A DNA stretch of 64,000 nucleotides from Mesodorylaimus sp. YZB2_4 (lineage: Eukaryota; Nematoda; Enoplea; Dorylaimida; Dorylaimidae), in the NCBI GenBank assembly GCA_030248295.1, contig JASANH010001446.1, positions 620,001 through 684,000 of the forward strand, read 5' to 3'. The notes beneath the pieces were generated by a model, which saw only the letters and a list, made by a program, of their open reading frames with translations, was not told the DNA's origin and ran no database searches. Each line of letters opens with the position of its first letter. The stretch's first letter is position 1. Below, piece after piece: positions 15,365 to 55,599 of this stretch. The position numbers and the translations under genes are program-made.

Positions 15365-15828
15365 TTGATCATTAGCGAGTAGGGAGCTCGTGTTAGCGAT
15401 TCGTTTTTGCTAGTTATATCTAGGGTCCAGTTGACGAATGGTAGTCATTGTACAGTTTTGAATTTGCGATTGCCATGCGGACTGTCGCCACCGCCATTTT
15501 AATTATTGCTGTATGTTGTAACCTAAATTGCTAGATATGTACACGAGATAGAGAGAATGGCGATCTATAGTGAAACTGAATAATATTGCCACAAAAACCG
15601 TAGCTGTGGGCAAGTACGTAAGAGAGTCTAATTGCTCAGAGCGAACGGGGCACGATGGGGTCTAAATACCGGTATTACATATCGAACATCAAGCTCTCAA
15701 TAATTTCTAATTCCTCACGTCAGATTCAGCTTCATTCACACGCAAAGAGACGGCCGTTAGTTTATTTTCTTCAAGAATTCCTTCACATTTTTTGGCAGAG
15801 TCAGATGATCATTTAACGAACACACCAT

Positions 15829-18432: not shown

Positions 18433-18671
18433 TTTCACGATTCGAAAATTGCTACCCTACTTGGCCGATCCGCCCTACGATTCGAGTAAATGCGCGTTTT
18501 ATTGCAGAGGTTCGACAAGAGGAGAGCACAAACCCAACTACTCGCTGTTCAAGACAGTCTAGTAATGATCAGCATAATGACGAGCCAAACAAAAAGGCAG
18601 TGAAAATGTAAAGTAAGTCATTCTTGTAGTCAATTCTCGTAAAGCGGCGATCAGCACAGCTGAGGCACCAA

Positions 18672-18798
18672 GGGCCAATTTCACAATCGCCATGTCGACA
18701 TGTCCTAAATATTAGGACACCGTAAGTCCTATCTTAAATCATTGCGATTTGATCGTCCTAACATTAGGACATGTCCTAGCTGATTGTGAAACTGGCCC
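18672..18798. mobile_element. 127-bp MITE, PIF/Harbinger-like
   Basis: Terminal inverted repeats GGGCCAATTTCACAATC and GATTGTGAAACTGGCCC bound the element, and CAA directly flanks both ends (18669-18671, 18799-18801). Inside, GTCCTAA.ATTAGGAC palindromes recur. A 3-bp duplication and GGGCC termini fit PIF/Harbinger MITEs; the superfamily is inferred. It has no coding capacity. Confidence 0.7.
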
Positions 18799-18940
18799 CA
18801 AGGCACTATTTGCCTGTAAGCGCTAGGCGGTGGCAGCCCAAGCAGGTCCCTCTGCTGGATAAACATTCATTCTAACAGATACAGAAAGGGCAATTTTTAT
18901 TCTTTATACAAACTTATGGACTCAATGACGAAACAAGATC

Positions 18941-20191: not shown

Positions 20192-21714
20192 TTTGACACT
20201 CGTTTTTGCATAAGCAATGCCAAAAATACGTGCCTACAGAAAGGAGACTAGTGTGAGCATGCCGTAGAACAGCCTTGCTCTTCTTCGAGCGCATTGCCAT
20301 TCTAAGGCCAAGACCCATTTCCGGTTTGTGGAACAGGTTTTCGTGACCAACCCTGTTCCCTTTAAAACAGTCACCTTCGATAAGAAAAATAGTTTTATGC
20401 CATCGTCCTCATTTATCCCACTGGTCACCAAACGGCGGCGGTACGTAAGCGTAATAGGATGGCCCCTACTGTCATTTTGAAGTTCGTCCTTGTTTTTCTA
20501 TGATCAGAAATGGGGCCTACAAAAGTCGTCATCAGTCGATCGGGTGGCACACGGGTACTTGAATCATTTATCATGTGGACCAAGGCGACTCGCGTATTTG
20601 ACATCACCCTATTCCGCTTAGTGCTGTCCCCTTTGCACGGCCAGATTATCTAGAAATAGCACACCTTGCTGACTTCTTTCGCATTTACCCAGATACTCCA
20701 ACCGGCACTACTAATTTATGTTAGTCCCAGTAAATTTTTTTGCAAGTTTTTCTCAAATTCAATCGAGTAGGGACGCCGAGCGCGTTGTCAGCCTCAACGC
20801 AACTAGGGATGTGTGTACTGCAGAGGAAATTAAAAAAACAACGGCATACTCGTGAAAGGTTTCCAATGATTGAAGTACTGTAGGGTGATAGAACGAGTAG
20901 AAATAGTATTTTACTATGAGAACCGAAGACCAGCTGCCAGACTGCGAATGCTCTGATTTCTTCCTGATTACGCAAATACTTTTGCCTTTGCATGCTACGC
21001 AATATCATCCGTTGTGCTCAGTTAGAGGCGGTCTATTTTCAAAAATCAAATATCGTAAAACAGATTTCAAATGGCATTGAGCATTTGCGCAGGTTCCATT
21101 TACATCATGCACGCACCAACACGAGTAAAGATTTCGGCTGGCCTAAAATTGCAGACGCCTATGTCAATGGCGTCGAATGAAATTCGAGCCAGGATCATAC
21201 AATTGGTCCGTTGAAAAATCTGAGTACAATACACAGCAGCGACCTATGTTACACCCGTGTACCCTCTAAAGTATACAAGGGATGCCGGGTGTGGAATCAC
21301 CGCAGCATATAACCGCATATGGTGGCTGTAACCGGTTTCTTCGAAATTTCTGAGCCAAGGACGTCGCGTACTTTTGGCCTTGCATGGGCATGATCACAAT
21401 ATGGAAAGACGGCAATAGGCACGAGTCCATCTTCGCCCCTCTAATTCCAATGCTGTCTAGTTACAGGAGCGGGTAGGCGGTGTTTACTGCCTGTAGAATG
21501 AGTAGTTCTTTTCTGAACTCAGACGCACCCCTTTCTACTTCTAGTATTGTACTAGTTTCGCAACCGTGCACACCAATGATCACACGCCAAAGAGAATACG
21601 TTGGGCGTGTACGACTCACGCACCCGAGATTACTCCAACTCGGTCATCGTCCAAGACTTCGCTTCGTCATCCTTTTTCCAGCCATCGGTCACTCGGCGGA
21701 CTGACTACCCGAAT
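20192..21714. other. Shared upstream region between proteases 2 and 3
   Basis: About 1.5 kb between two divergent protease genes. No exon is recognised; the short frames lack domain features. It should hold both promoters. Confidence 0.35.
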
Positions 21715-23136
21715 ATGGGCATGTCGACTGCTAGACGGCGATGGATATTACTAATCGTCTATTTCATTCTTTTGTTCGTTAAGGAATTAAGTATCGAACC
21801 TGTGCATTTCCCGCCACCCCTTCCTCCCCATGGCGACCACAAGTCATGCGTTGGAAGGCTGGACAGCTCTCCTTTCGGAGCTGGCTCTGCCAGAATAGCA
21901 TTATGCAATATTGGTAATTATGCTTATGCTGCTTACGTGAAAATTGGAACACCTGGTTACGGAGTGTGGTTAGAAATCGATACTGGATCGGCTGACACTT
22001 GGTTTATGACGTCAGATTGTTCTAGTCCAACTTGTTTATTGAGAAAACGATTTAATGTTCGCAATTCTTCGATGAGTCTTGAAAAACTTGGCAGAACATT
22101 TAATCTGACATACGGACCAGGCATCCTAGTGCAAGGCCACGTGGTTACAGATCGGTTATGCCTGGCAAAAGATGCATGTCTGGGCAACCGTACTTTGGGT
22201 GTTGTACAGAGGATCTCGCAAAGCCTAATGTATTCTGATGGTGTGCTAGGCTTGGGGTTTGGGTCACTGGCGAGACTTGGTCATCGTGACTCGTCTTTAC
22301 TCCCAGAATTGATGACTGTTGACTCATCACGGAGCAAAAATTATCCTGCAAGGCCTGTATTTGGACTGAGGCTGAGAAGAAATACACCGAACAGCGAGGA
22401 GGGCGATGGTGGAGAATTGACAATTGGGTACGTGAATAGGACTATTCGAGGGCCGGTTTTGCTCGGAATTCCCTTGGCGATTCATAACAGCGGGTATTGG
22501 ATGACCACTATGTCCCAATTCGAGCTCCAGTATTTTTGTGAAGAATCGTTGCCAGACTCTTTTTGTAATGACAATCGAATTGTGCCGCTGGTGACGGACG
22601 CAAGAAACGGTGCTAAAGCCATATTCGATACAGGAAGCACATACATATTGAGTTCTAGTCAAAAGTTGCAATTGGAGTTGGACCGGTGGCTACAAAATGG
22701 TTGGGTTGAATCAAATAAGGAGCACTTGGTCACGAATTGCCGTCAGTTACGCAACCTGCCCACCCTGCGTTTTTCATTTTGCTCAACCATCAACTGCACT
22801 CATTTCGTGGTCACGACCTTGTCACCCCAGCAGTACACCTTCCCACTCGGACTCGATTCTTGCCGGAGGCGAGTGGGTGTGCAGTACATCGCTGGATTGC
22901 CATTTACAGTGTTTGGGACGACGTTTCTTAGCAATTTCCACACAACGTTTGACTTTGGAGAAAAACGAGTTGAGCTGGAACCGTTGAGCTTCAAAGAAAG
23001 CAACATGGAGAGCTCGCTTGGTACGAATGTAACTTTGAATAGGGCCGAGATTCCCGGACGAGACCAGCCGGTTGATGGGTTTCTGGCCTGTCTAGCAACA
23101 ATTGTCGCAGCCGTATTGTTGACCCCGCTTAGATGA
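21715..23136 (+). CDS. Aspartic protease 3, probably GPI-anchored
   Basis: The frame is open from 21601, but the ATG at 21715 is preferred because it directly precedes a signal peptide (RRRWILLIVYFILLFV); this gives 473 residues without introns. Active-site motifs are EIDTGSADTWFM (DTGS at 89-92) and AIFDTGSTY; the flap is TYGPG. The Cys of ALCNIGNYAY and the Cys of DSCRRRVGV match the extra pair of the paralogues. An inserted loop with several cysteines (YFCEESLPDSFC) precedes the second motif. The C-terminus ends in a hydrophobic stretch (GFLACLATIVAAVLL) followed by only four residues, which is the form of a GPI-attachment signal, as in yapsins. It is therefore likely tethered at the cell surface. 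Confidence 0.88.
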   Translation: MGMSTARRRWILLIVYFILLFVKELSIEPVHFPPPLPPHGDHKSCVGRLDSSPFGAGSARIALCNIGNYAYAAYVKIGTPGYGVWLEIDTGSADTWFMTSDCSSPTCLLRKRFNVRNSSMSLEKLGRTFNLTYGPGILVQGHVVTDRLCLAKDACLGNRTLGVVQRISQSLMYSDGVLGLGFGSLARLGHRDSSLLPELMTVDSSRSKNYPARPVFGLRLRRNTPNSEEGDGGELTIGYVNRTIRGPVLLGIPLAIHNSGYWMTTMSQFELQYFCEESLPDSFCNDNRIVPLVTDARNGAKAIFDTGSTYILSSSQKLQLELDRWLQNGWVESNKEHLVTNCRQLRNLPTLRFSFCSTINCTHFVVTTLSPQQYTFPLGLDSCRRRVGVQYIAGLPFTVFGTTFLSNFHTTFDFGEKRVELEPLSFKESNMESSLGTNVTLNRAEIPGRDQPVDGFLACLATIVAAVLLTPLR

Positions 23137-23174
23137 CTTCTACGATGGATAAGAACACTTCTTCTCTCTATAAG

Positions 23175-23180
23175 AATAAA
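23175..23180 (+). terminator. AATAAA polyadenylation signal of protease 3
   Basis: First AATAAA after the stop codon at 23136, 38 bp downstream. Confidence 0.5.
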
Positions 23181-23404
23181 TGTTTGTCCAGGTCATTGGG
23201 CATAGCTTTTTGTATTTAGTTGCAAATAGAACAACGCTATTGTCAGAAGTTGGCCTACCGATTATCTGCTTCCAGCCAGTTAGAGAAAGAAGCTCGCTCT
23301 ACTCTGTGCTCTCTGGGTCAGCGCTAAATTTGACCAACTGCGTTAGATCAGGAGGGAATTCGTCGATGGATCATGTTTTTGTAAATTAGGTTTGCAACAA
23401 AAAG

Positions 23405-23828
23405 CTGTTGCGGCCGTTGGGGCAGCGATTTGGCATTCGTCGCTCCTTATTGCTTGAGAGCGAGTGGCTGAACTCGTCCCGGGTTCGATCCCCGGTGATG
23501 GAGGTCGGTTTGCGAACCATAAACCCTCGCTGACGTTGCGCACCAGGCCGTTGTGACTCACCCGGTACCGCCGAGGTGCTCCGAGTGAAGTGGCGGAAGC
23601 CAAATGAGTAGACAGTCTCGGCTGCCGAACACCGAAAGGGTTCAGCCCACCCGCCATTGTCCGAGGAAGTTGGTGACCAGTCCAGCATGCCCTCACGTGG
23701 AAGTGCACCTGGTGGAGGTCCACTCGCAGAGGGAAGCTATTGTGTGTGCTGGTACCCGCACAGCCCTGCTTATGAGGTTTGACGGCTATAGGCAAAAAGG
23801 GGCTCCTGCCGACAAAAACAAAAAATAA
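23405..23828 (+). repeat. tRNA-derived SINE, copy B
   Basis: The head has an A box-like TGGGGCAGCGA (23418-23428) and a perfect B box GGTTCGATCCC (23482-23492), then the family body (GGTCGGTTTGCGAACCATAA, GCACCAGGCCGT, CCGAGGTGCTCCGAGT) and tail (GGCTATAGGCAAAAAGGG) ending in an A-rich stretch. Inserted between protease 3 and the phosphatase pseudogene. Confidence 0.8.
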
Positions 23829-24396
23829 CAAAAAGCAGTAAAGCTGTAAATTGAGCTAAGTTATGCTAACAATACTGCTCAGCCCGAAGCCAGCATCCGC
23901 CAAGGGTTGTCGCAGAAGTGTAGCTCGAGAATCAGAAAGAAAGACCAAGAATTATACACCGCTGAAGAAGATTGTACTCCATCTGATCGTGAAGAAGAAA
24001 CCGCTGTTGGCGTCAGAAATCTCGACCCTGCTCGTCGAGGTCAAAACGATGCTGAAGAGAAACCGACTTGATCGAAGTCGAAGCGCCGGGCCACGTCTAC
24101 GATGACACTCACGGCCAATTCAAGGACGCCCTGAGAATCTTCAACAAGCTCGGCCGGCCGATGCAACAGAAGTACATGTTTCTACGCAAGTACATAATGA
24201 TAAGATTCGTAATCCTATCACGAGCTTTGAAGTCCGAATTTTAGGCTATTACATGGACAGAGCGTGGTGGTGTGTCTGCTGTTGGCCATGAAGTTGTTTC
24301 ATCTGAGGTTCGTCTACCTGCTGCGAGGCAACCACGAGGCCAGGGAATTCAACAAGGTCAACGGCTTCACCGAGGAGCTGTGGCTGGAGTTCAATG

Positions 24397-25336
24397 TGTA
24401 ATAGGCATGGACTAGGCATGTGTTATGTCCTCCGGCCTATGTGTGTACTGGTTCAGGGAACCGGTCCGCCTCTCCTATGTCAGGGCCAGCACGAGACCGA
24501 GAGTGAGGTTGAGGTCGAGTGGCTGGTCTGATTGCAGACATCGGTTGAGAACTAGTCTGGATCACCTGATCTGAACTGCTCTGTGAGCACTTCGGGCTCA
24601 GGCCCGTCAGAACCCCTTTGACGGCCGACACGTGCGGCTGCTCCCCGAATTGTGAGTCTACACGGCCCTTGTGGTGTGGTGGCTAATAAACGATATTACA
24701 AGGTGTCCGTGGACTGCGTGGTACTGTTCCTGACTTGGGCCATCCTCTGGTCAGCCCTAGTTTGCCCTAGGGCGAGCCAAGGATTTCACTGGCGTCGCGA
24801 ACAGGACAGGTGGAAGCGATGTCCCCATCGCTTCCACCCGGAAGAAGGTGGAGAAACAGGTTCACGTGTGGTGGTACCTGGCATACAGTTGCTCACAAGC
24901 GTCCGCCGGAACAACCCCTGGGCCACGAAATGCACAAAGCATACGTTTAGCCTCCAAGTCCGAAGACCTGGCCTGTAAGCTACCCAGGCAAGGGAGTTCC
25001 CGACACGAGTCAACCTCGATGCTCGGTACACACCAACACGCTCCTCCCGTGACGCCAAATGTAATAGGCGGAATAGCCCTACATTGGAGAAGATACCGCG
25101 GGGAGCGGATGGACTCAAAAACCCTCCAGGCAGGTCACCTAGTCGTAGGTGCCCGAGACATCAACCCGACGGGTTGCAGCCTCGCCTGGAGGAGCGTATC
25201 GAGCGGCCAACGAAGGCAACTGATACGCTGTATGCGGCGGCCAGTCAAGGCAACCGCATACTGCTCCGTGTATAAGGCGGCCAGTTAAGGCAACCAGATA
25301 CACTACCTTCTCCACAGGCCAAACACGCCCACTACA
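24397..25336 (+). mobile_element. LTR-retrotransposon remnant inserted in the phosphatase pseudogene
   Basis: Starts TGTAATAGGC, ends CACTACA and is flanked on both sides by AATG (24393-24396 and 25337-25340), a candidate 4-bp target duplication. The first ~392 bp look like an LTR (AATAAA-like signal inside, end near TTTCA at 24788), followed at 24790 by TGGCGTCGCGAACAGGAC, which resembles a Lys-type tRNA primer-binding site. TGTAATAGGC recurs at 25060 and opens a second terminal block of about 277 bp. The two blocks otherwise differ, so a rearranged or composite element is likely. No gag or pol is readable. The second block contains three ~40-bp tandem units (25198-25302). Confidence 0.6.
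24809..24838. repeat. 13-bp perfect hairpin next to the putative primer-binding site
   Basis: GGTGGAAGCGATG pairs with CATCGCTTCCACC around a TCCC loop, starting 2 bp after the primer-binding-site-like sequence. Confidence 0.55.
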
Positions 25337-25770
25337 AATGTAAGTGCCTGCGCTTTCTGCTACTGCACAGGACAAGTACTTTCCTTTAAAATTCTAGTGG
25401 CTGCGTTGCCGAATGGTCGAGCCCGAGCCCCCATATCGGCCAAGAAATTGTGCAGTTTCGACCTCCCCATGCCCCTAGACAACGAGGTGGTGGCTGATCT
25501 CCTCTGGTCTGATGGTGAGCTGATGATCGGTCCGATATCCGAGTTAGGCCTATTTCTAACGCTCTTTAGGTTTCGCACTCGCGGTCTTGGACATCAATTC
25601 GGTCTGGACGACTCCCTGTCTCGTCACGAAATCGACTGCATCATCCGTGCGCACCAAAAAAGCATGGGTTGGGCATGAGCATGATTCGGTGACAGTTTTG
25701 GTGACAATTTCAAGTGCGTGATCGTCTTCAATGCTCCGAACAATGGGGGGGGGGGGGCGAATCCAACAAC

Positions 25771-27102
25771 AACGCTGCGGTGGTGACGACGAGAAACAGC
25801 TAATAGCAAGCGTGACCATTCTGAAAGGCATGTGGAGGGCGATAGGAGAAAGGTTGGCATTGTGATCGTGCCAAGTGATCAATGTCTTTCGTGCAAATAT
25901 ATCGTGCGTATGTGATATTTGTCTGGTGAAATGGTTGGGATGAAGCGTACGGAATGGAAATGGCCACGATTGGTTCAAGTGGCTTAATTCAACCCAGCTC
26001 GAGCAATAGGAAAGCTCTTTGCTGCAGGCTCTTCCTCTCTGATAAGCGTAAGAATGGTCATATCACGAGATGTGCAAATATAAGCGTAAGACTACTGTAA
26101 TCCTTTGCAAACTGTTCATGCAAGCCAGGGGGTGCTTGAGGAAATGAAAAAGTACGATATTTGAGGAAAACTGGATTTCATTATTTCCAGAGCAGCAGTA
26201 CTCGTTCAACATGCATTGTTCCCTTGTCGGTATTGAATGGGTACCTCTCTACAGATGTCCAATCCTTCATTTGTCCTAAAATGTCACAAAAAAACGGCTG
26301 TCTGGTGTAAGCGTTGCTGATCCTAGGCTCTTAAAAGTCAGTGCTTCATCTTCAATGTGGGCCGGTGTTGCCACTTGAGATTTAAACACCCGTAACTTAG
26401 CCTTCCTCTTTTCCAACTCCAGCTTGCAATAATCCCTCCATTAATTGTACCCTCCGATGGCGAGTATTGATTGCTGCCTTGTCGCTATTACCAAAACTAC
26501 GGAAGCATTCGCGAGTGTCAGTTCCAAGAACTTTGGCCTCGTGCGTTCCTTCACTGCTGTTCATGTCTTATAACATTCTTCTCGGACTTCGCACGCGTCG
26601 CTGGTTTCTACTAAAGGCTAGCGGAATGATTTTTGTGGAAAACTTGTCTTTTCCAGGGCAGGAGATTAACTTTTATTTGAGCGCTCACCCACTTTTAAGG
26701 CACTTTGAAGGCGAGGGTGTAACGGTAAGTTATGAGGCACAGGCATAGTTCTTGGCTTGGCAGAGTAGGTGAGGATAAAAATAGCACTTACTAAAGTGAA
26801 TGTAAACCGGTACTCTGACTGACGGTGAGAGTGGAAGGCGAAACAGAACTGCACAGCGGGACCTTATTCGACCTCTTCTAGAATAACACAAAGGTGGAGC
26901 TAGCTGGCCGTACAAGCCACTTCATGCCACTTGCAGTCTTAGAAATCAATGTGACACGGCAATATGGGCGTAGTGGTTTCCGGTTCACCTAAGCACCACT
27001 CAGCTCCATTTATCAACTACTGATATTCGTTTCTATTAGAGCCTAACGGAGGAGGAGATGGTGTTGGCTTTAATAAACGCGTAGACCCATCTTCTCAATG
27101 CC
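25771..27102. other. Intergenic, no gene recognised
   Basis: Begins after a run of G (about 25746-25757). Open frames at 26467-26748 show no family features. Probably contains the promoter of the Kunitz/EGF gene. Confidence 0.35.
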
Positions 27103-29044
27103 ATGACATTATTTGCTGCGAGGCAGTTTTTCTCGGCATTGTTCATATTGGTCTGCTGGTTTTGTCTCTGGTCTCACTTTTCGCCCATCGTCCGTTGTGC
27201 CTTGTTGGAACGAAAATTTCAAGCCCCTACTTTATGCTTTCGTGATCCAGATCCAGGACCTTGCTCGTTCGTGCGCCGAATCTGGTACTTTGACCACCAA
27301 ACCCGCCGATGTGCTAGATTTGCCTACGGAGGATGTAGAGGCAATGCTAACCGATTCGAGTCACGACGCGCTTGTCTGAGGATTTGTACCGGAGCTGGAT
27401 CTGGAACTGATCTGATCGACAGTGGTGACGATGAAGAGAATGACGCATCTATGACAAAACCAGAAGGTGGTGCACCACCCGTTATTGCGATTGATACTTG
27501 GGATGCCATCTGTCTGCAAGAACCAAACGCGGCCTTATGCCCGCCAGAGAAAGCTGTACAAGGACGGTACTGGTACTTTTATAACTCATCTTCTGGGTCT
27601 TGTGAAGAATTCTTATACTACGGATGCGGCGGGAATAATAACCGATTCGCTACTGGAACCGATTGCCGAATGGCGTGTAGCCATTTAGGTTCTAGGTGGA
27701 AAGTACAAAGTAGGTTGCCAAATTCTGTATGGGTGCCCAAACAAGCGCCTGAGTTTCCAGTTCTCTGGCCTACTGCGTGAACACTGAAGTAGTGTTCGCA
27801 CCTATCACTCATCTGTCACTCACGGATTCTTCTAGCTTGCGACAACTGCGATACTTCGACATCCTTATGCAGTCGTGAAACTGATTGGACATTTTGGTGC
27901 CGTTGTCGAGAAGGCTTTCATCGTGATGCAAGTGGCCGATGCGTGGGTAAGCACACATCATAAAATCCCTCCCTGGCTCTCGCATCTGTCTTACTGTAGA
28001 TGAAGACGAATGTGACACGGCGTCTGGAAAAACTACCAAATGTGATCATAATGCTTGGTGCATCAATACCCCTGGCTCCTATTTGTGTACTTGCATGGTA
28101 TGAATGCTTGACCCCACGTCCGAGTCTTTGATTCATATGCGCCATATACTCAGGCTGGTTTCATGGGCGACGGTCATAAGTGCAGCAAAGGAACAGTTAT
28201 TGAATTGCCAATGGCTCCAGTCACAGTGAAGTCCGCTGCCACGCCGACTGCCTACAACTTTTCTGGTAAGTCATGCTGCATTATTCGTCTGCGTAGTGCG
28301 CTGGTATTTTTAGGTGCCACCATAAAAATTAAAGCCATTACGGCCCCCGCCGCGCACTTCGCCACAACAGCTCCTGCTGTGAAGCTAATCACCTACGAGC
28401 CTTGGTTACCGTCCCATTTCACCCCCACTATCCCCCAGTGGTACGACTGCCAACGATGTCACAAGAATGCCACCTGCTGGTATGGAATATGCCAGTGCAA
28501 GCAAGGGTTCACTGGAGACGGGGCCGTGTGCGGAGGTAAGCAGACCAGACCTGTCTTCTTCTTCATCTTCCTCAAAGAGATAATATTGGACTGCAGATAT
28601 CAACGAATGCCTCACACGCACTGCCCGATGTGCCCCTGAGGCCACTTGCTTCAATACGGAAGGGTCGTATTACTGTAAGTGCCCTGGTGGATATGCTGGC
28701 ACTGGATTCTTCTGTATAAGAGATAGAAGTACGTACCCACTGTAAAGTGATTCTCGCCATTAGGCTATTTTGGCCGTCTTGTTCTGAAACACTCTTAGGC
28801 GTCTGCTCAGAACCACTCGACAGTCAGTACAGAGAGCAGTGCGGCGAAGCCTACTTTCAACGACGGTATTACTACGATCAACGATACCGCCAATGTCGGA
28901 TGTTCTGGTACGACAACTGTCACGGATCCAGCCGCAATGTATTTCCCGATTTGGACACGTGCCGATCATTCTGTGAGCGCGCAAATGGACCCGAGCCCCC
29001 TTCTCAATTCAAACCAGAGCGTCAAACAGTTCCAATCAAAACGA
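27103..29044 (+). CDS. Secreted Kunitz-Kunitz-EGF-EGF-EGF-Kunitz protein (N-terminal part)
   Basis: Seven exons (27103-27709, 27836-27946, 28000-28097, 28154-28265, 28314-28535, 28597-28728, 28799-29044), most introns phase 1. A signal peptide (FFSALFILVCWFCLWS) precedes Kunitz 1 (GPCSFVRR, YGGCRGNANRF) and Kunitz 2 (YYGCGGNNNRF). Then come an EGF-like exon (CDNCDTSTSLC...CRCREGF), a calcium-binding type EGF (DEDECDTASG...CINTPGSYLC, split over two exons), a Thr/Ala-rich spacer with a short EGF-like unit (CQRCHKNATCWYGICQC), another cbEGF (DINECLTRT...CFNTEGSYYCKC) and a degenerate Kunitz 3. The last exon ends on a phase-1 donor at 29044, so coding must continue; the first downstream same-strand phase-1 acceptor with Kunitz coding is at 32089. 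Likely an extracellular-matrix or cuticle-associated protein, reminiscent in composition of MEC-9 or papilin. Confidence 0.85.
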
Positions 29045-29274
29045 GTAAGTCCATGAATATACCTGCGGTTGAAACATCAGCCAGAGTGGTTGGCGTCTCC
29101 CACTCCTGAACGGCCGAACAGGGTCACAACGGGATAAGAAATCTGCAGTTCTTTTGTACTTTCGTGACGCATCTATCCGTAAGAATAAGGATCAATAGCG
29201 TCTCTAGCGCGATATGCGGAGCACCGTCCATATACTGGCATACAGTACATGCTAGTATTTGATTACAAGAAGAT

Positions 29275-31479
29275 CTACAGTTTCAAGGCGCAGCGTGTAA
29301 CATTGCGACGTGCATTGGCTAATCCAATGGCATTGCTGCCATAATCGAAAACAGTATAATACTTTCCCATAAATGAGTCGCCTAGCACCCATCGTTCCTT
29401 GCCACCCTGCAGACCCCAGAGGGCCACGACCCGTGTGCATGACGGTGGTGCCGTCGAAGAGGAAGCTGGTGAAGGAAAAGTGTAGTGGAGCGGCTCCAAT
29501 GTGAACGGGCGGTTGTTGATTAGGAAGGTGAGTACTGGCAGTTCAGGCACCTTGTCGCAAGATACCTCGTAGTAGCCCAGCTGACGGTTCATGATAATGA
29601 GCGATTTGCCATGAAGATCGTCCAACATGGCTGCCAGGTCTCCGTTGCCGATAACAAAACTCGTTCCAGAATCGATAACGGCTAGTGTTCCACTCTATAA
29701 CACAATCAACGGTCGGATGCCCCTGCTTGGACAATACTGCATGAATGCTCACGCTTACCCCAATAGTCTGTTCTCCACTCGTAGCATAGGTGGCCGTCAC
29801 TGATTGCAGCATAACAGTCCAGTATCCTTGATCGACAACGGGTACACGAAAGATCTCGCCCTCGTAATGAGCGGGATCAACCGCACCCAGTGTGATCTCT
29901 CCTCCTCCCTGACAATGAACATCTGGATCTCGATTCAGCCAAAAGGCGAATATTGGTTGTCTCAATAACTTTTGCCTGATCATATTCGTAAATAAAGGGG
30001 TCCCGATAGTGGTCAGGCCGGGAAATCCTAATCCAAGTACACCATCGATCAAGGTAGCGCCCGTCACGTTGATTTTATCCGCAGCTCCTACGATCTGCTC
30101 AGCTACACAGATATTGGCCAGACATACTGTATCGCGGACGACCCGGCCTTCAACATGCGACCCGTCAGCATAGTCATTACGAAATGCTCGGTCAGTTAAA
30201 ACGGCCGTTTTGGATTTCTCTATATCATAGAAATCACGCAGCCCTCCTTGACTCCTGGTCGTCGTGTTTTGATGGGGCCTTTGACAGAAGACACCATCGA
30301 CACAAGATGTGGAGGGAACCCAAAGAATCGAGGAACCCGTATCGAAATCAACTTCGAACGTTTGTGGCGGCGTGCCGATGGTGATCATTCCATAATAATA
30401 GACATCGTCCACATTGCACAGCCCGCGAAAGGCCATTTGGCGCCTGGGATTTGACTCGCGCGATTTTGGCACCCCTACAAATAAAAGTGAATTTAAACTT
30501 TTTTCGTGATACGCCAAGAAAATTTGGTAAAGGCAGCTCCTGAAGGGACCCCTTTGCTTTGTGTAAATTTACCCTGCTGAAAAAAGTTGCCTTTTATGAT
30601 TGTACAGCACGAGTACGGTACTAGTGGGTACTCAACCTAGTCTACTCCCATACCGCGTGGCCATGGTTCATGACTTTGAACATCATTGGGACAAATGGAC
30701 TTTAGTACCTTGCAGTATTTTCGTGTGAAATGTTGATTTGGACTGACTTTCGCCAGCTTTTCCTCCCAACCTGCTCACTGTTCATCATCCAATTCACGTG
30801 TGGTAAGTGGGATGTGGCATATTTGGCATGCTCATATGCACTCAATCAAGTCGGACGGAATGTTCACTCTCACCCACGTGTTGGCATTTGGTGAAAGGCT
30901 CTGTCAACGTCACGAGGCTCCGTTACGCAAAAAAATATTTTTGTTACTGGCGGGCACACTCTGCGATTTGCACGTATGTCTACTTACAAAGGGGATGACG
31001 CATGGCTTGCATAAGTGATCCTGGTGTAAGGCTTTTCATCGTAAAGACAAGGGGGTAATATCGGCTCTTCCATGCGGACCCACTTGCACTCACTCACCTG
31101 GCTTCTTCCCGCTACTTTTCCTTACATCCCTGCAGCAATAACCAGCTCCTTTTCGATAAACTGGGAAAATTTTGATCCGCTGTATTGGGATCGGCGCTGA
31201 AGGTGTTGATGCATCTGAGCTGGTAGACGTGGTAGTAGAGATGGCTGACATGGTACTGGTGTCAGCCGAGAATGGTGGTGGTTGTGGGAAGTCTACAGGC
31301 AAGTCATCTTCAGTTTGTCTTCCACTGTCAACTTCTCTCACTATGTCGGTTATTGCTTCCGGTTGAGAAGTCGTAGTGCCGAGGTCATCTGCAGCGGCAA
31401 ATACGAGTAAAATCTTTAATTCCAGGGACAGAGAGCACAGCAAGATGACCTTGACCAGATCGAACCATTTCAAACTCAT
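29275..31479 (-). CDS. Secreted aspartic protease 4
   Basis: Three exons (31098-31479, 29759-30474, 29275-29694) give 505 residues with closing phases. Exon 1 has a signal peptide (VKVILLCSLSLELKILLVFA) and a long Ser/Thr/Pro-rich prosegment (SADTSTMSAISTTTSTSSD), much longer than in the other three paralogues, then GYCCRDVRKSSGKK. The mature domain starts at RGLCNVDDVYYYGMITIGTP. Catalytic motifs are DFDTGSS and VIDSGTSFV (Ser in place of Thr, as in several A1 proteases), with WVLGDSFMGKYYTVFDY at the end. The gene lies between the two Kunitz exon blocks on the opposite strand, and may be nested in one intron. Confidence 0.9.
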
Positions 31480-32088
31480 GATCGTTGTTTATGAAAAATA
31501 TTTTGATTCGCTCTCGTAGTAGCCTAGGCTTTTCATTTACGAAGACCCTGTAGCTTCGTCGCGACTGTTGCTGGCTGCACTTTGATCGAAGAAAGAGGGA
31601 GGGCATCTTCGAGATAGTGGCAAAGAAAACGACTCGACGCCGCGTCAGCCAGCTGTTGGAGGAGTAAATGATTAATGAGGATGAAACGAGGGCATTGTTC
31701 AAACCAGCAAAGTTTCTGGGTGTTTGTCAATTAGCGAGGAGGAACTTGAGAATTTCGATAATGCAAGCGCTTCTTGGTGGGCGCTCGCCCTGTGATTCCA
31801 TTGCGTCTTTGTCTCTGGATAATAGCCAGGTGTAATGTTGGCAAAGTGTCGTCGGTGATTGAGGGTAACCCAAACATTTTCTTCTCTCTCTGTGATAAGG
31901 TCTGGCCGGGCACCTTCCAGCACCCTTGTTGTGTCGACGTGTACATGTCGATGAAAGAGTCGATGCAAACAGGAAGCGGCGGAAAAGCAGAGCGTGTGTC
32001 TTAAAAGAACTAAAACTAACCGACGTGCACCGCTTTTCCGAAAAGCATCCTGAGTTGCAGCTGCGAATGCAACTTTTGTGTTTTTTAG

Positions 32089-33545
32089 CAACCATCTATC
32101 GCCGATACCCGTCAGCGTTGGTTACATATGCGCCAACTGGTATTGACCAATCGCCGCCACCTTCTAGTGTGGGCTCGCACTGTCTGATGCCGTGCCAGCC
32201 GGGCACTTGTTACGGCGCCTATTTCATGTATTATTATAACGCAAGTAGCAGAGCTTGTGTTCCGTTTATTTACACTGGTTGTGGTGGAAATGCGAATCGA
32301 TTCTTGACTAAGTCTAGCTGCGAGGAGACCTGTCTGATGCCACCTCATACCCCAGGTAAACACACTGAAAACTCATTTCCACAGGCCTTTCTTGATGACA
32401 TCTCGAAACCTTGATCTGGCACTTCTTACAAATCGCAGCAGCTGCCTACTATCCCCTTCCGATTCTAGAACTCGACTGTCTGCAACCGGTTGACTATGGC
32501 TACGGTCGGTACGACAGAAAGTGCCAACCACATGCTAGTTTCGCGTGGTTCTACGACCAAGATGGCGATGAGTGTGGCCGATTCTGGTATCAAGGATGCG
32601 GCGGAAACGTGAATCGATTCGTCACAGAACATGAATGTAAGTCAAAATGTCTCGGACGATCTCAGAAATTGAGGCATCATCCTAAAATGATGCCATTTCG
32701 GAATGTTAGAGGTGAGAGATGTCCACGCTTGATCCAGTGTGAAGTAGGAGTATAAATCCGTTGGGCTTCGATATCAGATTGTTTCCAAGAAAAGAAAGAA
32801 GGCTACTGTTACTACATTCCTAATAAACCGCGTTCCCGCTTCTATTACGACTACACCGATCGCCAGTGCAAAGAATTTATGTACAATGGCTGCGGTGGGA
32901 ATACGAATCGGTTCGGAAGTCGAGAGTTCTGCGACAGCACCTGCCAACAGACATTCAAGCCGAAGTCGAGTAAGTTGCGACTATCAAACAGGGACGGTTT
33001 TAGCATAACTTCATTTCAGAGCAGTGCATGTACTGGGCCGACATAGGGCCATGTAATGACATGCAAACCATGTGGTACTTCGACCTGAAAACAGGGACTT
33101 GCCACTCATTCCTATGGTCTGGTTGTGGTGGTAATTTGAACCGATTTCGAAGTAGAGAGGATTGCGAATCTGTCTGCGTTTCCAGAGAAGAAAGTAGGTC
33201 TTCTTTTTTCTTAATTACTTCGCAAAATCAGTGAATTCTGCTTCAGATCCGTGCGCTCTTCCAAAGCAGCCCGGTCCATGCGCCGATGCTCTACAGCGAT
33301 TTTACTACGATCCCGTGTTCACCATATGTCGACCGTTCATCTATGGTGGTTGCAAAGGCAACGACAACAATTTCCATTCCATTGATGAGTGTCGTATAAG
33401 ATGCGAACGATTCGAGACTGAGTTACCTACGCTAAAAGGTCCCGACTTCAAAAGCAATACTTTAGAGAAGTACAAGAAACAAGTCAAAGGTGGCAAGCGG
33501 AAGGCAGCTAGAAGACGCACTTTTATGAAGAACTCAAATGATTGA
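32089..33545 (+). CDS. Five-Kunitz-domain secreted protein, probably the 3' half of the 27103-29044 gene
   Basis: Exons 32089-32355, 32439-32711, 32778-32969, 33020-33193, 33247-33545. Each carries one Kunitz domain and every intron is phase 1, the classic exon-shuffling arrangement. Each domain shows the C-terminal half G(C)GGN.NRF...C...C; Kunitz 8 has YGGCKGNDNNF. The last exon ends in a Lys/Arg-rich tail (KKQVKGGKRKAARRRTFMKN) and a stop at 33543. The first exon accepts in phase 1 at 32089, matching the donor at 29044, so one protein with eight Kunitz domains is the simplest model. The alternative is a separate gene starting at the ATG at 32067, whose N-terminus (MQLLCFLATIYRRYPS) is a poor signal peptide. 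Confidence 0.85.
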
Positions 33546-39119: not shown

Positions 39120-41662
39120 CTAAACTTTAGTATCCTTCATATGTTCCATAATCATATGATAATACCATTCTCTGGGCGTACGTACAGTGCTGCATCTCGA
39201 AGTCACATCCAGACTCTCTAAGCTGGCCAACACCTTCTCACTAGTGTAGCTCAATGTTCGAGGTTGTTCTATCCATTTTATGTAATAAATATCATTGGGA
39301 ATAAAAGGTTTAGCTCCAGCGAAATAACGTATATTCGGTTGTCGTCCATGAACTAAACATTCCAACAAATATTCTTCGGGCAATGTGGCCATCTGCCCTA
39401 TTTGTTCAGCAGTTACTCCAAAAGAGCGTTGTAGAAATGCTACATAGCCGAATACGTCACTCAAATTCACCACTTTACCACCAAATTGAATAAGAGCCTG
39501 CCTTTGCAACATTTGTTTAACGTTACGACCGAAGAAATGCAAGTCGCGAATGTATGTAGAGCCTACGAGATCGATGCACATGGTAGTGATAATCAATCCT
39601 AATACAATGTATGTGATGGTGGCCAGGATAAATGTTTGGTTCTCGGGAACAATATCTCCAAAGCCTGAAAAAGAAAGAATGTCAGGTTAGAGTTGTATGC
39701 CGTCAAGAGCTGACTCTGAGGAGTCGAGCAAGTATCTTGGTTTTAGATCGTGGAGACTCATTATCGGGTCCATCAGTGGGGTAGATCCAACGATTAAGGG
39801 AGTCGAAGCCCATAATTCAGAGAAACTTGCCTATTGTAGTGACTGTGATAAAGCAGTAATAAAATGCGCCAAAATAGCTCCATTCGGTACCGTGTTCCCA
39901 AAGTGGTATGAGGGCGGCGCCCAGCGCCGTATATCCAACAAGGATAATCAAAAGAAATGTGGCCGATATAGTTTCATCGCTCTCTGAAAATTGGTCTTCA
40001 GATCGACCTTCTGACGAGACATCATCGCCAGCCGCTGAAGCCGCTGAAGTTCCAGGCACTTGTTGAGTTTCGTCCTCGACTCCACCGTTCGGATTGTGGT
40101 TAGCCTCTCCGGGCGCCTTACTACCTTTCCTTTTCGCTGCCCGACGCGCCATCCAAGCAGCACGACGTCGTTGCATCCGGCGAATAAATTTGGCACAACT
40201 CTGTTTTACCATACGTGCAAATTTGGCGTAGTACTGATAAATTTTGATCACGTATATGGACAAAAATTTACCCATGTCAGCGATCGTTACTAGAATCAGT
40301 GGAATACCTATTAACGCAAATCCTATGCATATGATCTGACCAGTCGGAGTCTGCGGCACCAGGTGACCATAGCCTGAAACAAAAAGCGCCAGTATAGGCA
40401 GACCACAGAGACACTTGGACCATCGGAAATAGATTTTTTTCCTTCACAGAATCACGCCGTTAAGATAATCTGCTGCACTCTGATTCTTCCAGACCCATCA
40501 GTCAGTTTGGTACTCGTATATTCGTTTTTGGTATGAGTGTCCATAGTCGCAACTGGCCTTGAAAAAGCATGGCAAAATCCATTGACCACACCCGCATCAG
40601 GCATGCACTGCTAGTATACCGCTGTGTTCTCCTGGGACAGCATCGTCACTGGTAATGATCGGTCGAATAAACGCGGAAAGCTCAATATTCCCTAGCTGTT
40701 TTTGCCAGGATAAAATTGAGAAAAACAAGTTATTCATAATTCGATAGACTAGAAAATATGGGGCCTTGCCTGCGCCACCGTAGATAGCATCTCGTCCCCA
40801 AAGCTTCAGCTTTGTAATTACTTCAGATCAGATTGACAAGATTGAAAAAAGAAGTGAGAAACATTGATCCAATGTTTTGGCCTTTGTATTAGTCTCTGGT
40901 CATTTATGCACATAGCGCTGCTACAGATTAGGCTAACAACGTTATACTCGGAAAGAGCAGCATGTGCAAGACGCGCCAACTAGGCACTTTTTGTAACAGC
41001 TTTTGAAGACTTTCATATGTACAGCGCTGTAAGAAAACCTGGGGACCTTGCTAGGAGAGGGCCAGGCTCAAGATTCTATTCAGAATACCAGGCGCTCATC
41101 GCCACTCTGCCGTTTGAACACTGACTGGCCCCAAGTGTGACTTACCAATGGTTGTAATGACTGTAGCAGAAAAGAAAAGGCTAGCAGAAAACGTCCACTT
41201 GACAGTGTGTTCTGTCAAGTTATATTTAATATCGTCCATAGTGACATGGTGGTCAGTAAAGGCCTCGCGTAAAGTCTCCATGAAACTAACCAAATCGCCA
41301 TTCACCATCTGCGTCCATAATTCGGCGTCGACGCTCGCATTTTGACTCAAGGTCCACAACTTAGATGCAAAGTCTTGTTTAAATCGTAGAATCTGTTCAA
41401 GGCTTTGCTTTTTTTGATCAACTTCATATGGTCGTTCAATAACGTAAAAAATCACCGCTCCAAGCACCGTGTACAATATGGACATCAGTACTAAGCCCAC
41501 GTGCGGTAAGATGATCTTTGCTCGCTGCAAATAGAAAAAACAGATGGAAGCACGTTCATTGGGAAGGGTTTGCTGGCGGTACAAATTTATTGATGATTGC
41601 ATTTCATAACTGAGCCTGTAGGAAAATTCTGTGTACTTTTGGTCCTTCATTGAGGCCGACAT
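39120..41662 (-). CDS. Two-pore-domain potassium channel (TWK/K2P)
   Basis: Three exons (41146-41662, 39831-40373, 39120-39664), 534 residues, phases closing. Order: cytosolic N-terminus, TM1 (HVGLVLMSILYTVLGAVIF), a long extracellular cap with a glycosylation site (YNLTEHT), pore 1 ATVITTIGYGHLVP, TM2 (IICIGFALIGIPLILVTIAD), a large basic then acidic intracellular loop (RRMQRRRAAWMARRAAKRK), TM3 (ATFLLIILVGYTALGAALI), pore 2 ITVTTIGFGDIVP, TM4 and a C-terminal domain of about 145 residues. The filters TIGYG and TIGFG are standard for K2P leak channels that set resting potential at the plasma membrane. Intron 1 starts with GT; intron 2 has a GC donor (GCAAGT at 39830). The start could be the ATG at 41662 or 41650. 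Confidence 0.93.
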
Positions 41663-42480
41663 GCCTCCTCTCTGCGTACATTACACATAGCCCTGCGTAC
41701 ACATACTTGATTTCTGTCAGTCTCTTCATCATCGTGGACAACGAAGCAAAAATAGGCTCGCATGACCATTCTGAGGATTGATTCTCAGAAAGAAGTACTT
41801 CCTTTTTGTGGCTCCAAAGAAAGCATCAGCCAATTTAGAAAGTGGCACCAAGAATGGTCTTCTAGCAACAGAGAAAACTATAAAAACTACAATTTATCAC
41901 AGTCTTGCTGGGACAGATTGACCTACTCACTGTTCTGCGTACGCACAACACAATATCGTCTCACACGAAAATCTTGCGTCACTCCAGCCATATCTTGTAA
42001 ATATTTAAAAACCTATCGGCGCAGTACATTTTAGGGACTGCTGTGGTTTGTGCGCGCTTGCCGGTTTGATACATACAGTGCTTGAAAAGGAATCATGTCA
42101 AAAATACACAAGCACTTCCTGAACAGAAATTTGCCGACAGAAGGTTCGAGAGGCGAGATTTGTTCACCATATTGGCTCTTTTCTATCGACCAAATGTTCG
42201 TCGCTGAACAATTTCGTGGAGGGAAAATTGAATTAAAACAAGCCGTCTTAGCCGGCGAAAGGCCAATTAAATAAGCTTTTTATTGACTTTGTAAGAATTG
42301 CTAGAACCAACCGCTGTTCGATACTCATTTGTTTACAGTGTGACAATGGCACCGTGTGCGATGCCACCTGTTGACTCTAGGTCCCGCAACATGGCAGACG
42401 TCCATGATTCTACTTTACCTGCTCTAGTTGCTTACTTCAAGTCAAATCAGAGTCGGGTCAATGTCAAATGGTTGACTCAC
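41663..42480. other. Intergenic, no firm gene
   Basis: Upstream region of the K2P channel. A minus-strand stretch near 42345-42412 (SAMLRDLESTGGIAHGA) is open and flanked by splice-like motifs but could not be placed in a model. Confidence 0.3.
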
Positions 42481-51218: not shown

Positions 51219-54200
51219 TCAGAGTGCACTCGGATTGGGGGAAGACGTCGACATCTTCGAAAGAGCTGGCGACCACTTGGATGTGCTGGTTGTTGTGCGA
51301 GTACTATTTGCTGGGGACCGCCGCACTCTTTGAAACCATTTTGCATACGAAAACAGGTATAGGAGGGCGATTATGAATCCTTGCAAACCAAAAGCGAAGC
51401 AAAATAGATAGTGAAGTTCAGTTACTTCAGGAGAACCAATTGTAAAATATTGGAAAACCTGAAAATACCACATTTAATTTTTGTTATGCCGGACAATTGC
51501 GATTTTCTTGTCTTTTACCCATGGAAAAGCCAGAACAACTTGCACTGTCAACAATACCACACATTTTCGCGCCACATCCACATGTTTTTTTCGTGACACG
51601 GCCATCACCGTTTTGACAAAAAAGAATTTCTTGACCAGTAAGACAGTCAGGACGATATCACCCGCAATGAGCAGTGAGAGCGGAAACATGACTGCCATCC
51701 CAACGTAGCGAGGACGGATCCAACAGCTGCAATCAAATGCAAACATGACGCTTTGGATAGAGTGGCAAACTTTGTAAACTGGTCAAAGGAAACCGTACAA
51801 TCCATCGCCACGATCAAAAAAATCTTTGCACGCCGCATATTCGATTGCTGTAGTAAAGAGTGGAAAGGCTAAAACGGAAGCGCCTTATCCTTTTTGTGGC
51901 CGGAAATTCTAGTCTGCTTACCAAAGCTCATGGCTAAACCACTTTTTCGTTGCGTAATTAGTCGAAGCATATTCTCGTGAAATACAATATAATGACTTTT
52001 GAAGGCGTTTAAACCAGCCAGTGCTGCCCAGCACATCTGTGCCAGTAAGACAGTGTACAAAATGGCTGCTGAGAATTTGCATTCAGATTGATTTAGCCCG
52101 AGGCAATCTTTATTCGATAAAAAAACGAAGAGAACGAGGAACGTGAGCATAGTTGCCATCATTGGCTCGTATGGACTGCTATTCTGATGTGGAGGCGGTA
52201 TTCGGACCAAGGTCTGCAAAAGTCTGGAGCGGGCGGGGGACGCTCCACGGAAACAATATTTCATGTACTTAAGAATAATGTGCAGCAATATCGCTGCAGC
52301 AAGGCTGCTGATTGAAAGAGAGGCTAGGATGTTGGATAAGAGGGATAAGTTCGGGTCGCAAAGTGCGGGATCTTTTTCCGAGATATCCTACAAGAAAATG
52401 TAGATAACTTGAAATTAAATTGATATCTTCGTCAAAGACATTTTCGAAGAAGCAAAAACACTTGAAGGCTAGTGGAAGGAGTCATTTTACTAGGCGTTTT
52501 CTGAGTTTTTCCCCTCACAGTCTTGCTTAATCAAAAGACAAAGAGATCTATAAGGCGATTGCTCACTACCCTTGGTCTTACAAATCTCCTTTCAGACTGG
52601 AAATTTCTGAAATCGTTGGAATGTGATAGGAGTGACAAAAATAAAAAATTACCACCATCAGTGAGAAGTCTGTTAGATGATTGCACTCGCAAATGTGCAT
52701 TCCATTCTTGAACTCGACGAATCTGCATCCAGCAGGAGACCAGTGTTCGTCATTCCAAAATTTGCACTGGGAACGAGCGTGCAAAAACTGAAGCAATAAG
52801 ATAAAATAGCATTTTTCTAAGAGTCAAAGTAAATGTTCAGTTACTTGTGTTTTTTTCATATTGGAACGGAACCCGATTATCACAGGATTCGTCAGACGAT
52901 AAGGGTGTTCCAAATAAAGAGTATCTTGTATTTCCAAGAATACATCGACGGTCACGATGGAATCCATATCAGACTCACTTGTGATGGAACACGCAGTTTT
53001 TGCGGTTTCATTAACTTGGAACAGGCTATGATTGTTGTAAACGACGAAACCTACGCGCCCTATTTTTTTGAGAGAATCCTCCCCCCGCCACCTCCTTTTT
53101 CCCTCCGTTTGTAGAGAGTCTTGCCAACGGATTTGCTCAAGTGGCAAGAAAGCAAACACCACTGTATCATCAGCCCAGTGCCAGATTTGAGGCTCACCAG
53201 GATCGTGAGTCAGAGTGATCGCTGTGCCATTTGCTCCTTTGATGTATCCTATTCCTCCAGTGTCTCCGTTGCAAGGATGATCACGCAGTGCTATGGCTAC
53301 ATGTCGGCCATTATATTCTAAATTTTGACGGACGGTGTTTTTCCCAAGATTGCTGACAGCTTTTCGAATCCTAAAAAGAACGATTTGCTGTGTTGATCTT
53401 CTGGTGCCAGACCTGCATCATGAAAGTACACTACCTTTTTGCGCTGTCTCTGTTCATCACATTAGGATCCTGGTCCAACATCTTGTCCGTAATTTCGAAA
53501 GACTGGAAAAAGGTCTGAAGGAAAAATTCGAAATGAGTATAAGATCGAAACATCCTCGAATCACTCATACATCTTCCGACAGATTTGGAAAAGCAGTAAA
53601 TTTCTCCAAGAGCTGGGACGTTTTATTGATTTGGTCTTCGTCCATGGCTTCACTGTGATTCATGACGATTGTGGTCAGCTCTTTCAAAGCACCTTGTGCG
53701 CTCGAGGAATTATTGACAGGTAGCTGAATCAAACCAATGAACAATGATTAGATCAGAACCATCTAATGCGACAAACCTTACTTCTTCGAGGTGCTTTAAC
53801 TTTTCAGTCAAACTTTTCATAGCAGCTTCATCCGTGATTGGAATGAGCTGTGTTGAAGGATCGAATGTTGCAGATTCGGCAGAGAATTCGAAAGTCGTTG
53901 CAGACGGGGTGGCCGATGACTCGTCGACGGATGTCAATGACGTTAATGGTGAACTAGATGTGCTGTATGATGTCGTAGTATTTTGAAAATAATCTTCTGG
54001 TGTAATATTATTACAGTTTTCTAAAGTCGTTGGAGATGGCCCTTCTGTGATTGACTGTCGTTTTAATCGAAGCCGCGGTTCTGGCGTGGTCGTCACTGGG
54101 CATTGAGTCCAGGACAACCAAGACCATTCGCAAAGAGCAAACGCATAAGCCCCGCGTGGATTAACTCCATATGAGATAATTGTAAAATCGGTGCTGAAGC

Positions 54201-55599
54201 ATAATACTGATTTTGCTTTTGGAAATTCATAATGTTTTTGTCTAAAGTCTCTAAATTCGCGAGAAAATAAAGGACCAAGGATCTCAGATTTATTCACTGG
54301 CGAGCATGAAATGTCCCGACTGCCACCACGTGGAGCTGCTTTGGATATAACATCCCAGTAATTTAAAAAAATATCAGAGTAGGGTGCGTTGCTTACAATC
54401 AGACACTGATTTTGATATTGCTCGATTGGAGGAATAAGGGTGAAAAAGTCATTCGTGACGGCTCCGTTTAGCCATTTGGTTTCGTTTGTAGTCGCAAGGC
54501 TCGTTACTTCTGATGTGTCCCTTTGGTTCAAAATCTGGTGGCTAGCATAAACTGAAGCATACTGCGATAGATTGGGGTTGCAGTTTGGCTTATAATCACT
54601 CAGCTGAACAAGAAGGCAAGGCCTTGTGCAGGCTGAAACTTTTGGACCCATAACTGTCAGAATGTGGGACTCGCCATAATCTAAAGTCGCTTGCGTCGAT
54701 TCTCCCAGGATAGAAAACTTGGTGTTGTTACTGGAGCTTAGAACTCGGTACACGGAAAGCTCCCTTTGATAAGGCATAAAAAAGGTAGTGCCCCATCTCG
54801 ATACTGGCGGCAACATTTCCGCTTCAAAATGATTACTGTTGTCGACAGCTTGTCTCCCAACAATGACAGCGATGGGATGCTGGCTTTCAATGATCGAACC
54901 AGTGAGATCGTAATCACTGACAAACGTCCATGTGTTCCAGGCTTCAGATAAAATAAATTCTCCTGATCTTGTATTCTTGTCAGCCTTGTGTTCTACGATC
55001 GTCACAGCCACACTGTTTTGATAATCAACGCCATTGACCAGCACAATCTGAGTCTTGGTTTGTGAAGCACCACAACGACCTTGACCCGTCACCACTATGT
55101 AACGCCGTCCCAAACTGGTAACGGGAAGAACGAAGAATGCGTCACTTTTTTTACTGCCTGCTACAATGGCTAATTGTGCGGTCGACTTGATGCTGATTCT
55201 TCCATTGTCGTATCTCCCAATAGGGCAACTGGGAGTTTCCTTATTAGAATATCCCACCTGAATTCCTTCAGGTAATTCTTCCTCCAAGACCATGGTTTGG
55301 CCGTGATAAAGTTCACGGTGTATTTCTGCCTGATTTTGACTTTGCGGGAAGAAAATGCGAGCTTTCGACAAATCCAGGCCTGGATTGGAGAGAGATATGA
55401 ACAAGTTAGCATATTCCTTGGAATAATGGACTTGCGGCATCGCAAAAATGTATTGGTGTTCTATAGAATGTAAACAAGAAGAGACTTAGTCTTAAGATTA
55501 ATAAAAGAAAACCAGGTGCTCACTTTCCAGAAGCTCGTCGCTTCCTGCAACTGCCGAGAACATGCACAAGATCACACTGATTACCAATTGGACTTCCAT
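51219..55599 (-). CDS. Adhesion GPCR with IgGFc-binding ectodomain
   Basis: Ten exons (55524-55599, 53782-55460, 53571-53723, 53435-53514, 52845-53370, 52653-52787, 51922-52387, 51799-51868, 51519-51726, 51219-51458) total 3633 nt and close to 1210 residues. Residues 1-20 are a signal peptide (VQLVISVILCMFSAVAG). About 30-470 match the IgGFc-binding N-terminal domain of FCGBP/zonadhesin-type proteins (KEYANLFISLSNPG, GRRYIVVTGQG, SQHPIAVIVGRQ, WGTTFFMPYQ). A Ser/Thr-rich linker follows, then a GAIN domain (LKELTTIVMN, GRVGFVVYNN) and a canonical GPS: CKFWNDEHWSPAGC ... CECNHLTDFSLMV, with the HL/T cleavage site. Seven helices follow: TM1 ILASLSISSLAAAILLHIIL, TM2 MMATMLTFLVLFVFL, TM3 KFSAAILYTVLLAQMCWAAL, a short TM4 before the ECL2 CWIRPRY, TM5 MFPLSLLIAGDIVLTVLLV, TM6 CVVLLTVQVVLAFPW, TM7 FCFAFGLQGFIIALLYLFSY. 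It is a self-cleaving cell-surface receptor. The TM4 exon is the least certain. Confidence 0.85.

Follow-up and report, generated by a model that had tools for sequence, protein, structure and literature searches.

We describe a predicted adhesion G-protein-coupled receptor (aGPCR) of the nematode Mesodorylaimus sp. YZB2_4 which probably carries an IgGFc_binding domain as a head ahead of a core of GAIN, GPS and seven-transmembrane (7TM) domains, the head having been exchanged at the linker between them. The gene is located on the minus strand of a DNA stretch of 64,000 nucleotides, the window (contig JASANH010001446.1, positions 620,001 to 684,000, assembly GCA_030248295.1; contig C18 of the 145 Mb genome searched). 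That this is an aGPCR with an IgGFc ectodomain is supported by domain scans and by solved-structure matches that were exclusively aGPCRs. The strongest support is a paralog on contig C79 of the same genome. In this nearest relative within the genome, two VWA domains stand where the receptor has IgGFc, so that the family appears to have swapped heads at the linker preceding GAIN. Apparently, the protein is a modular receptor whose head was exchanged.

Open frames and splice signals were assembled by hand into a gene model. It has ten exons with 3633 nt, i.e. 1210 codons and a stop, and no internal stop. All nine introns are GT-AG; eight are 53-72 bp long and one is 265 bp. Two donors are possible at the end of exon 8, and the one which keeps the frame was chosen. 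A first-pass annotation of the same DNA, made from the letters alone, had proposed a ten-exon gene in which every splice phase closes, and such a gene was rebuilt here. An intron which it listed at 52846-55460 is absent from the model; the intron after exon 5 is 52844-52788. The signal peptide proposed there corresponds to a hydrophobic, signal-peptide-like stretch at the start, called by hydropathy and not by a trained predictor. A signal peptide followed by a long ectodomain, a feature counted for membership in the receptor family, is thus predicted.

At E<=1 the whole protein matched two Pfam families only, IgGFc_binding (PF17517) and GPS (PF01825), both above the Pfam cut-off. IgGFc_binding was matched with E 6.6e-26 and 91.7 bits, the cut-off being 25.6. 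The IgGFc similarity on which the earlier assignment depended, within residues 30-470, is therefore present. The solved-structure search with exon 2 alone yielded no match at E<=1. The domain label 'IgGFc-binding' is not to be read as function because nematodes do not have IgG. Zonadhesin, which had been named as a further bearer of the domain, is known for VWD-type domains in common with FCGBP, rather than for PF17517. The head is followed by a linker rich in Ser, Thr and Pro (48% over aa 491-565). Intron 2 (53782/53723) had been taken as the junction of the two modules; this had to be corrected, as the boundary lies inside exon 2, within this linker.

The GPS was matched with E 1.6e-8. By eye, the HL/T cleavage motif at aa 875-877 is intact; cleavage at HL/T is an established rule for aGPCRs. 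The part from aa 501 onward, containing GAIN to 7TM, was compared with solved structures. All 20 distinct sequences matched at E<=1 were adhesion GPCRs, and the best, ADGRF1 (9.4e-8), was aligned from the GPS to TM7. A two-member profile of the protein and the C79 paralog again retrieved adhesion GPCRs only (28 of 28 at E<=0.1). Its best match was ADGRL3 (2.8e-16), aligned in two parts, one with GAIN-GPS and TM1 and the other with TM2-TM7. GAIN subdomain B was aligned to the GAIN domains of ADGRL3 and latrophilin-1. TM4 was placed by alignment to the paralog, and the cysteines of TM3 and extracellular loop 2 (ECL2) are present in both proteins (alignment, by eye). Since all solved-structure matches were aGPCRs and the trimmed core of the paralog matches Pfam 7tm_2, the region is classed as a class B 7TM on sequence grounds. 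The earlier reading of a GAIN/GPS with intact HL/T thus holds for the GPS and the cleavage motif; GAIN is unseen by Pfam and rests on the solved aGPCRs and the paralog. The 7TM, too, is borne out by these two and was not recognised by 7tm_2, so that the Pfam scan proposed in the first-pass annotation returned PF17517 and GPS but not the third family named.

A search of the genome with the GAIN-7TM part detected two other strong loci, on contigs C79 and C177, and weaker ones on C72, C58 and C130. The C79 receptor (contig C79 950-6099, minus strand, locus L036) is an adhesion GPCR with two VWA domains as head. To our knowledge, this is also an unusual ectodomain for an aGPCR. The gene closes with 16 exons, 1200 aa and no stop. 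Its head was matched by Pfam VWA in two stretches (1.9e-25). In pairwise blastp the two proteins align with E 3e-64 and 29.6% identity (aa 482-1169). They have in common the GAIN-GPS-7TM core, the Ser/Thr-rich linker, the HL/T motif, which is aligned without a gap, and the exon-end phases from the GAIN start on, identical in 8 of 8 cases (0,0,2,0,0,1,2,0). They differ in the head, two VWA domains instead of IgGFc, and in the Pfam matches of GPS and 7TM. The first exon past the junction codes for 51 aa in the receptor and 50 in the paralog, with phase 0 at both ends.

The paralog is the decisive evidence. At the end of exon 2, AAMKSLTEKLKHLEE in the receptor is matched by KTAANLTELLWELAQ in the paralog. 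This comparison over 15 residues ranked top of 546 ungapped exon 2 windows (p 0.007; 20,000 shuffles in each test). With 10, 13 and 20 residues it also ranked first (p 0.003, 0.001 and 0.002), and with 25 residues it was second of 536 (p 0.007). The short match is modest alone and strong together with the shared intron. From the exon-end match and the shared phase-0 intron we infer that GAIN starts inside exon 2, in the open frame of the IgGFc domain. In the paralog, one exon includes the final part of the second VWA region, a Ser/Thr linker and, at its end, the GAIN helix. Because the first GAIN helix shares an exon with the end of the head region in both genes, most likely this is one gene; that a single gene joins the IgGFc head to the aGPCR core is very probable. 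The first-pass annotation had claimed just this, and the Pfam domains, the aGPCR-only structures, the equal phases and the helix in exon 2 bear it out.

Several findings speak against this interpretation. The paralog model, too, was made by hand, with the receptor model in view; therefore, the equal phases are no blind test. In the receptor, Pfam 7tm_2 was not recognised, whether in the whole protein (E<=1) or in the separate 7TM part (E<=10), and Pfam GAIN was unmatched at E<=10 on the separate parts. Support for GAIN subdomain A comes through the C79 paralog, with no independent database match. Hydropathy with one fixed threshold predicts six helices; TM4, split by intron 7, is below threshold. 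The full-length paralog is without 7tm_2 at E<=1 and only its trimmed core matches (2.3e-11), and its GPS is below the Pfam cut-off (12.8 bits, E 0.18). Finally, tblastn of the head in its own genome (E<=0.01) found a single match, the query itself. This speaks against a head copied recently from a different IgGFc gene of the genome, and that reading was rejected. With no close relative of the head detected by tblastn, either the exchange was not recent or the head has evolved fast.

The missing 7tm_2 match and the divergent 7TM would also suit a GPS protein that is no working GPCR, for instance one which is polycystin-like or has lost G-protein coupling. Yet the solved-structure matches were to aGPCRs only, the best spanning the GPS to TM7; the trimmed core of the paralog is recognised as 7tm_2, and the TM3 and ECL2 cysteines are retained in both proteins. 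We regard this alternative as very unlikely. Two further alternatives draw on intron 2. If it is retained, the frame of exon 2 continues for 23 residues to a stop at 53712-53710, and the resulting form would be without GAIN and 7TM. This is what two adjacent, misjoined genes would give, a secreted IgGFc protein from exons 1-2 and an aGPCR which starts downstream. However, part of the GAIN start is located in exon 2 and the paralog match extends up to the shared phase-0 intron. With 58 bp intron 2 is too short to have room for a promoter and a signal-peptide exon, and hydropathy gives no sign of a second signal peptide, with no above-threshold segment from aa 24 to aa 897. Misjoining is thus highly improbable.

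The same stop shortly past the intron 2 donor might enable one gene to form two products, the full receptor and a soluble IgGFc head, the latter either by intron 2 retention or by proteolysis at RLKR (aa 490-493), a furin-like motif that may be due to chance. C. elegans LAT-1 has variants with the extracellular region only, according to the part of a 2026 aGPCR review covered (PMC13197933). But a chance stop is common in unspliced introns. Also, motifs of the R-x-K/R-R kind are not uncommon; the predicted cytosolic tail has another, RVRR at aa 1175, and in a pattern scan the C79 paralog has none. Two products are therefore rather unlikely.

Where might the head have come from? The genome contains at least 42 PF17517 stretches on 14 contigs among the matches listed, two of them below cut-off. 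The number of genes is smaller because exons of one gene were counted apart. Thirteen of the 42 form a one-strand cluster at C233:14012-89735, a putative local gene expansion. Of eight other IgGFc loci looked at, four continue into Ser/Thr-rich or repeat-rich stretches, L001, L002 and L005 of the seven loci with short flanks being among them. The IgGFc protein at C11:1109001-1115000 (locus L047) has a 4345-aa open frame with long tandem repeats; their motifs NDCDG and DDDGDGLIDEDL are possibly calcium-binding. At least eight GPS loci were present among the matches listed, the receptor included; the weak GPS on C79 was missed. No PF17517 was listed on the contigs of the other seven, and Pfam scans upstream of six of these (C130, C249, C321, C16, C2, C72; C58 was left out) detected no IgGFc. 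Among the matches listed, no PF17517 match other than that of the receptor lies close to a GPS match. PF17517 also occurs on C79, at a distance of about 365 kb from the paralog. Among the 47 listed 7tm_2 stretches, the one that comes closest to PF17517 is on C151 and still about 67 kb from it. As far as searched, the IgGFc-headed receptor is thus predicted to occur once in the genome. In collections not made up of animals, viral contigs yielded no relatives, and 12 pattern matches in prokaryote contigs yielded none that was confirmed. The genome also contains 133 matches to the cuticle-collagen family Col_cuticle_N, which mark it as that of a nematode.

The second strong locus, on C177 (L037, C177:203001-213000, approximately 6230-9101 of this piece, plus strand), reads as a degraded, head-less copy of the C79 receptor. 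DNA identity to C79 is 93.1% over 2902 bp, with stops inside exons. The copy starts where linker and GAIN adjoin, and no VWA was matched in the upstream stretch that was read. Because this degraded copy starts at the linker, the core can be duplicated without a head. Two paralogs with one core and different heads, together with a head-less degraded copy from the same linker, preserve in few genes a natural record of how aGPCR ectodomains are exchanged.

How might such a receptor work? The chain would reach the cell surface and cut itself at HL/T in the GAIN domain, the two pieces remaining associated. On an exposed surface, the IgGFc head may bind a matrix polymer, for instance one that is mucin-like or associated with the cuticle. 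Such binding, or a pull, would then loosen the N-terminal piece and free the tethered agonist TDFSLMV, which in turn would activate the 7TM and a G protein. Self-cleavage with tethered-agonist signalling is, by analogy, fairly likely; the covered part of the 2026 review presents dissociation with a tethered agonist as a model of aGPCR activation (PMC13197933). A mucus or matrix ligand is proposed tentatively. The domain is best known from FCGBP, and proteins of the FCGBP type are reported to form gels (PMC7333891, seen in part). In this genome, moreover, other copies of the domain are next to stretches which are rich in Ser/Thr or in repeats. For these two reasons a mucin-like or cuticle-associated polymer was considered as ligand. 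That the receptor may sense mucus, cuticle or matrix, as the first-pass annotation suggested, is a reasonable inference. More speculatively, the subfamily might constitute a plug-in sensor with a constant GAIN-7TM core and heads, VWA or IgGFc, exchangeable via breakpoints in the Ser/Thr linker, with the IgGFc member as a reader of the condition or pull of a surface coat that is mucin-like or cuticle-associated. If so, a domain of gel proteins would act directly as a receptor. A receptor bearing the IgGFc domain would provide G-protein signalling as a direct read-out for finding the ligand of such domains in animals without IgG, and as a candidate sensor of mucus or surface coat it is testable.

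Features of the candidate receptor gene (positions in the window)
Feature	Positions	Strand	Basis
Whole gene, predicted IgGFc-bearing adhesion GPCR, 1210 aa	51219..55599	-	phases close, no internal stop, GT-AG 9/9
Exon 1	55599-55524	-	gene model
Signal-peptide-like start, aa 1-19, MEVQLVISVILCMFSAVAG	55543..55599	-	hydrophobic segment in hydropathy scan
Exon 2 with 559 full codons; a single unbroken frame codes for N-terminal head, IgGFc, Ser/Thr linker and first GAIN helix	53782..55460	-	gene model
IgGFc_binding PF17517, aa 132-401, profile positions 1-243 of 297	54334..55143	-	Pfam; same place in genome-wide PF17517 listing
RLKR, furin-like motif, aa 490-493, head/linker border; may be chance	54058..54069	-	pattern scan
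Ser/Thr/Pro-rich linker, aa ~494-565	53842..54057	-	48% S/T/P over aa 491-565
Exon 2 end, AAMKSLTEKLKHLEE; counterpart at the end of the corresponding paralog exon, KTAANLTELLWELAQ	53782..53826	-	ungapped window comparison
Intron 2, 58 bp, phase 0; position and phase as intron 8 of the C79 paralog	53724..53781	-	gene models compared
Exon 3	53723-53571	-	gene model
Exon 4	53514-53435	-	gene model
Exon 5	53370-52845	-	gene model
Exons 3-5 with their introns, remaining GAIN (putative)	52845..53723	-	subdomain A by paralogy only; subdomain B by ADGRL3 and latrophilin-1 GAIN match
Exon 6	52787-52653	-	gene model
GPS motif, aa 845-881	52659..52769	-	Pfam PF01825
Predicted self-cleavage site L876/T877, then tethered agonist start TDFSLMV	52671..52676	-	by eye
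Exon 7	52387-51922	-	gene model
Predicted seven-transmembrane region, aa ~897-1167, across exons 7-10	51351..52348	-	solved-structure matches, paralog alignment, hydropathy
Exon 8	51868-51799	-	gene model
Exon 9	51726-51519	-	gene model
Exon 10	51458-51219	-	gene model

Other frames in the window were named by eye. Several aspartic-protease-like open frames are located on both strands at 14184-30568, Kunitz-like frames at 27085-27780 and 31899-32414, and frames resembling exons of a two-pore potassium channel at 39120-41680 on the minus strand.

Compared with known systems, the latrophilins (LAT-1, ADGRL3) and also ADGRF1 resemble the receptor in that GAIN subdomain B, GPS and 7TM align. Latrophilins bear a rhamnose-binding lectin (SUEL/RBL), whereas the receptor is without a Pfam match to it at E<=1; C72 holds what is probably this genome's latrophilin, with two SUEL_Lectin matches under the Pfam cut-off. 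The cadherin, EGF and laminin G ectodomain of Flamingo/CELSR was likewise not matched at E<=1; EGF, laminin G and HRM were matched by Pfam at the GPS locus on C249. With FCGBP and other PF17517 proteins the receptor shares the PF17517 domain, which it has above cut-off. FCGBP is secreted and contains VWD repeats, whereas the receptor has no VWD match at E<=1 and bears a membrane receptor core instead.

Varied N-terminal domains on an aGPCR core are known from several animals, as the parts of the sources covered describe. In amphioxus the heads are Kringle, Somatomedin B, C-type lectin and SRCR (PMC2246102), in a sponge SRCR (PMC4302439), and in the nematode Bursaphelenchus two C-type lectin domains (CTLD) precede GPS and 7TM (PMC9085898). 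The last paper also has VWA alongside C-type lectins. Lineage-specific gain of aGPCR heads is described for choanoflagellates and animals (PMC12716839). In their main texts, the amphioxus and sponge papers mention neither IgGFc nor VWA, and PMC12716839 does not mention IgGFc; both are absent from the part of the 2026 review covered (PMC13197933). Four papers contain IgGFc along with adhesion G protein-coupled receptors; by title and opening of the abstract they deal with a clam transcriptome, a bird-virus transcriptome, a human population study and a urine proteome. The earlier statement that no aGPCR with this ectodomain was described agrees with the literature searched, in which no combination of IgGFc_binding with an adhesion GPCR was found; because animal protein databases were outside the search, an uncommented record of it may exist. 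According to the same part of the review, C. elegans has three aGPCRs, namely LAT-1, LAT-2 and FMI-1 (PMC13197933); therefore, the present nematode seems to have types unknown from C. elegans. Adhesion GPCRs with unusual heads are already known, and IgGFc_binding as a head is, as far as searched, a new combination.

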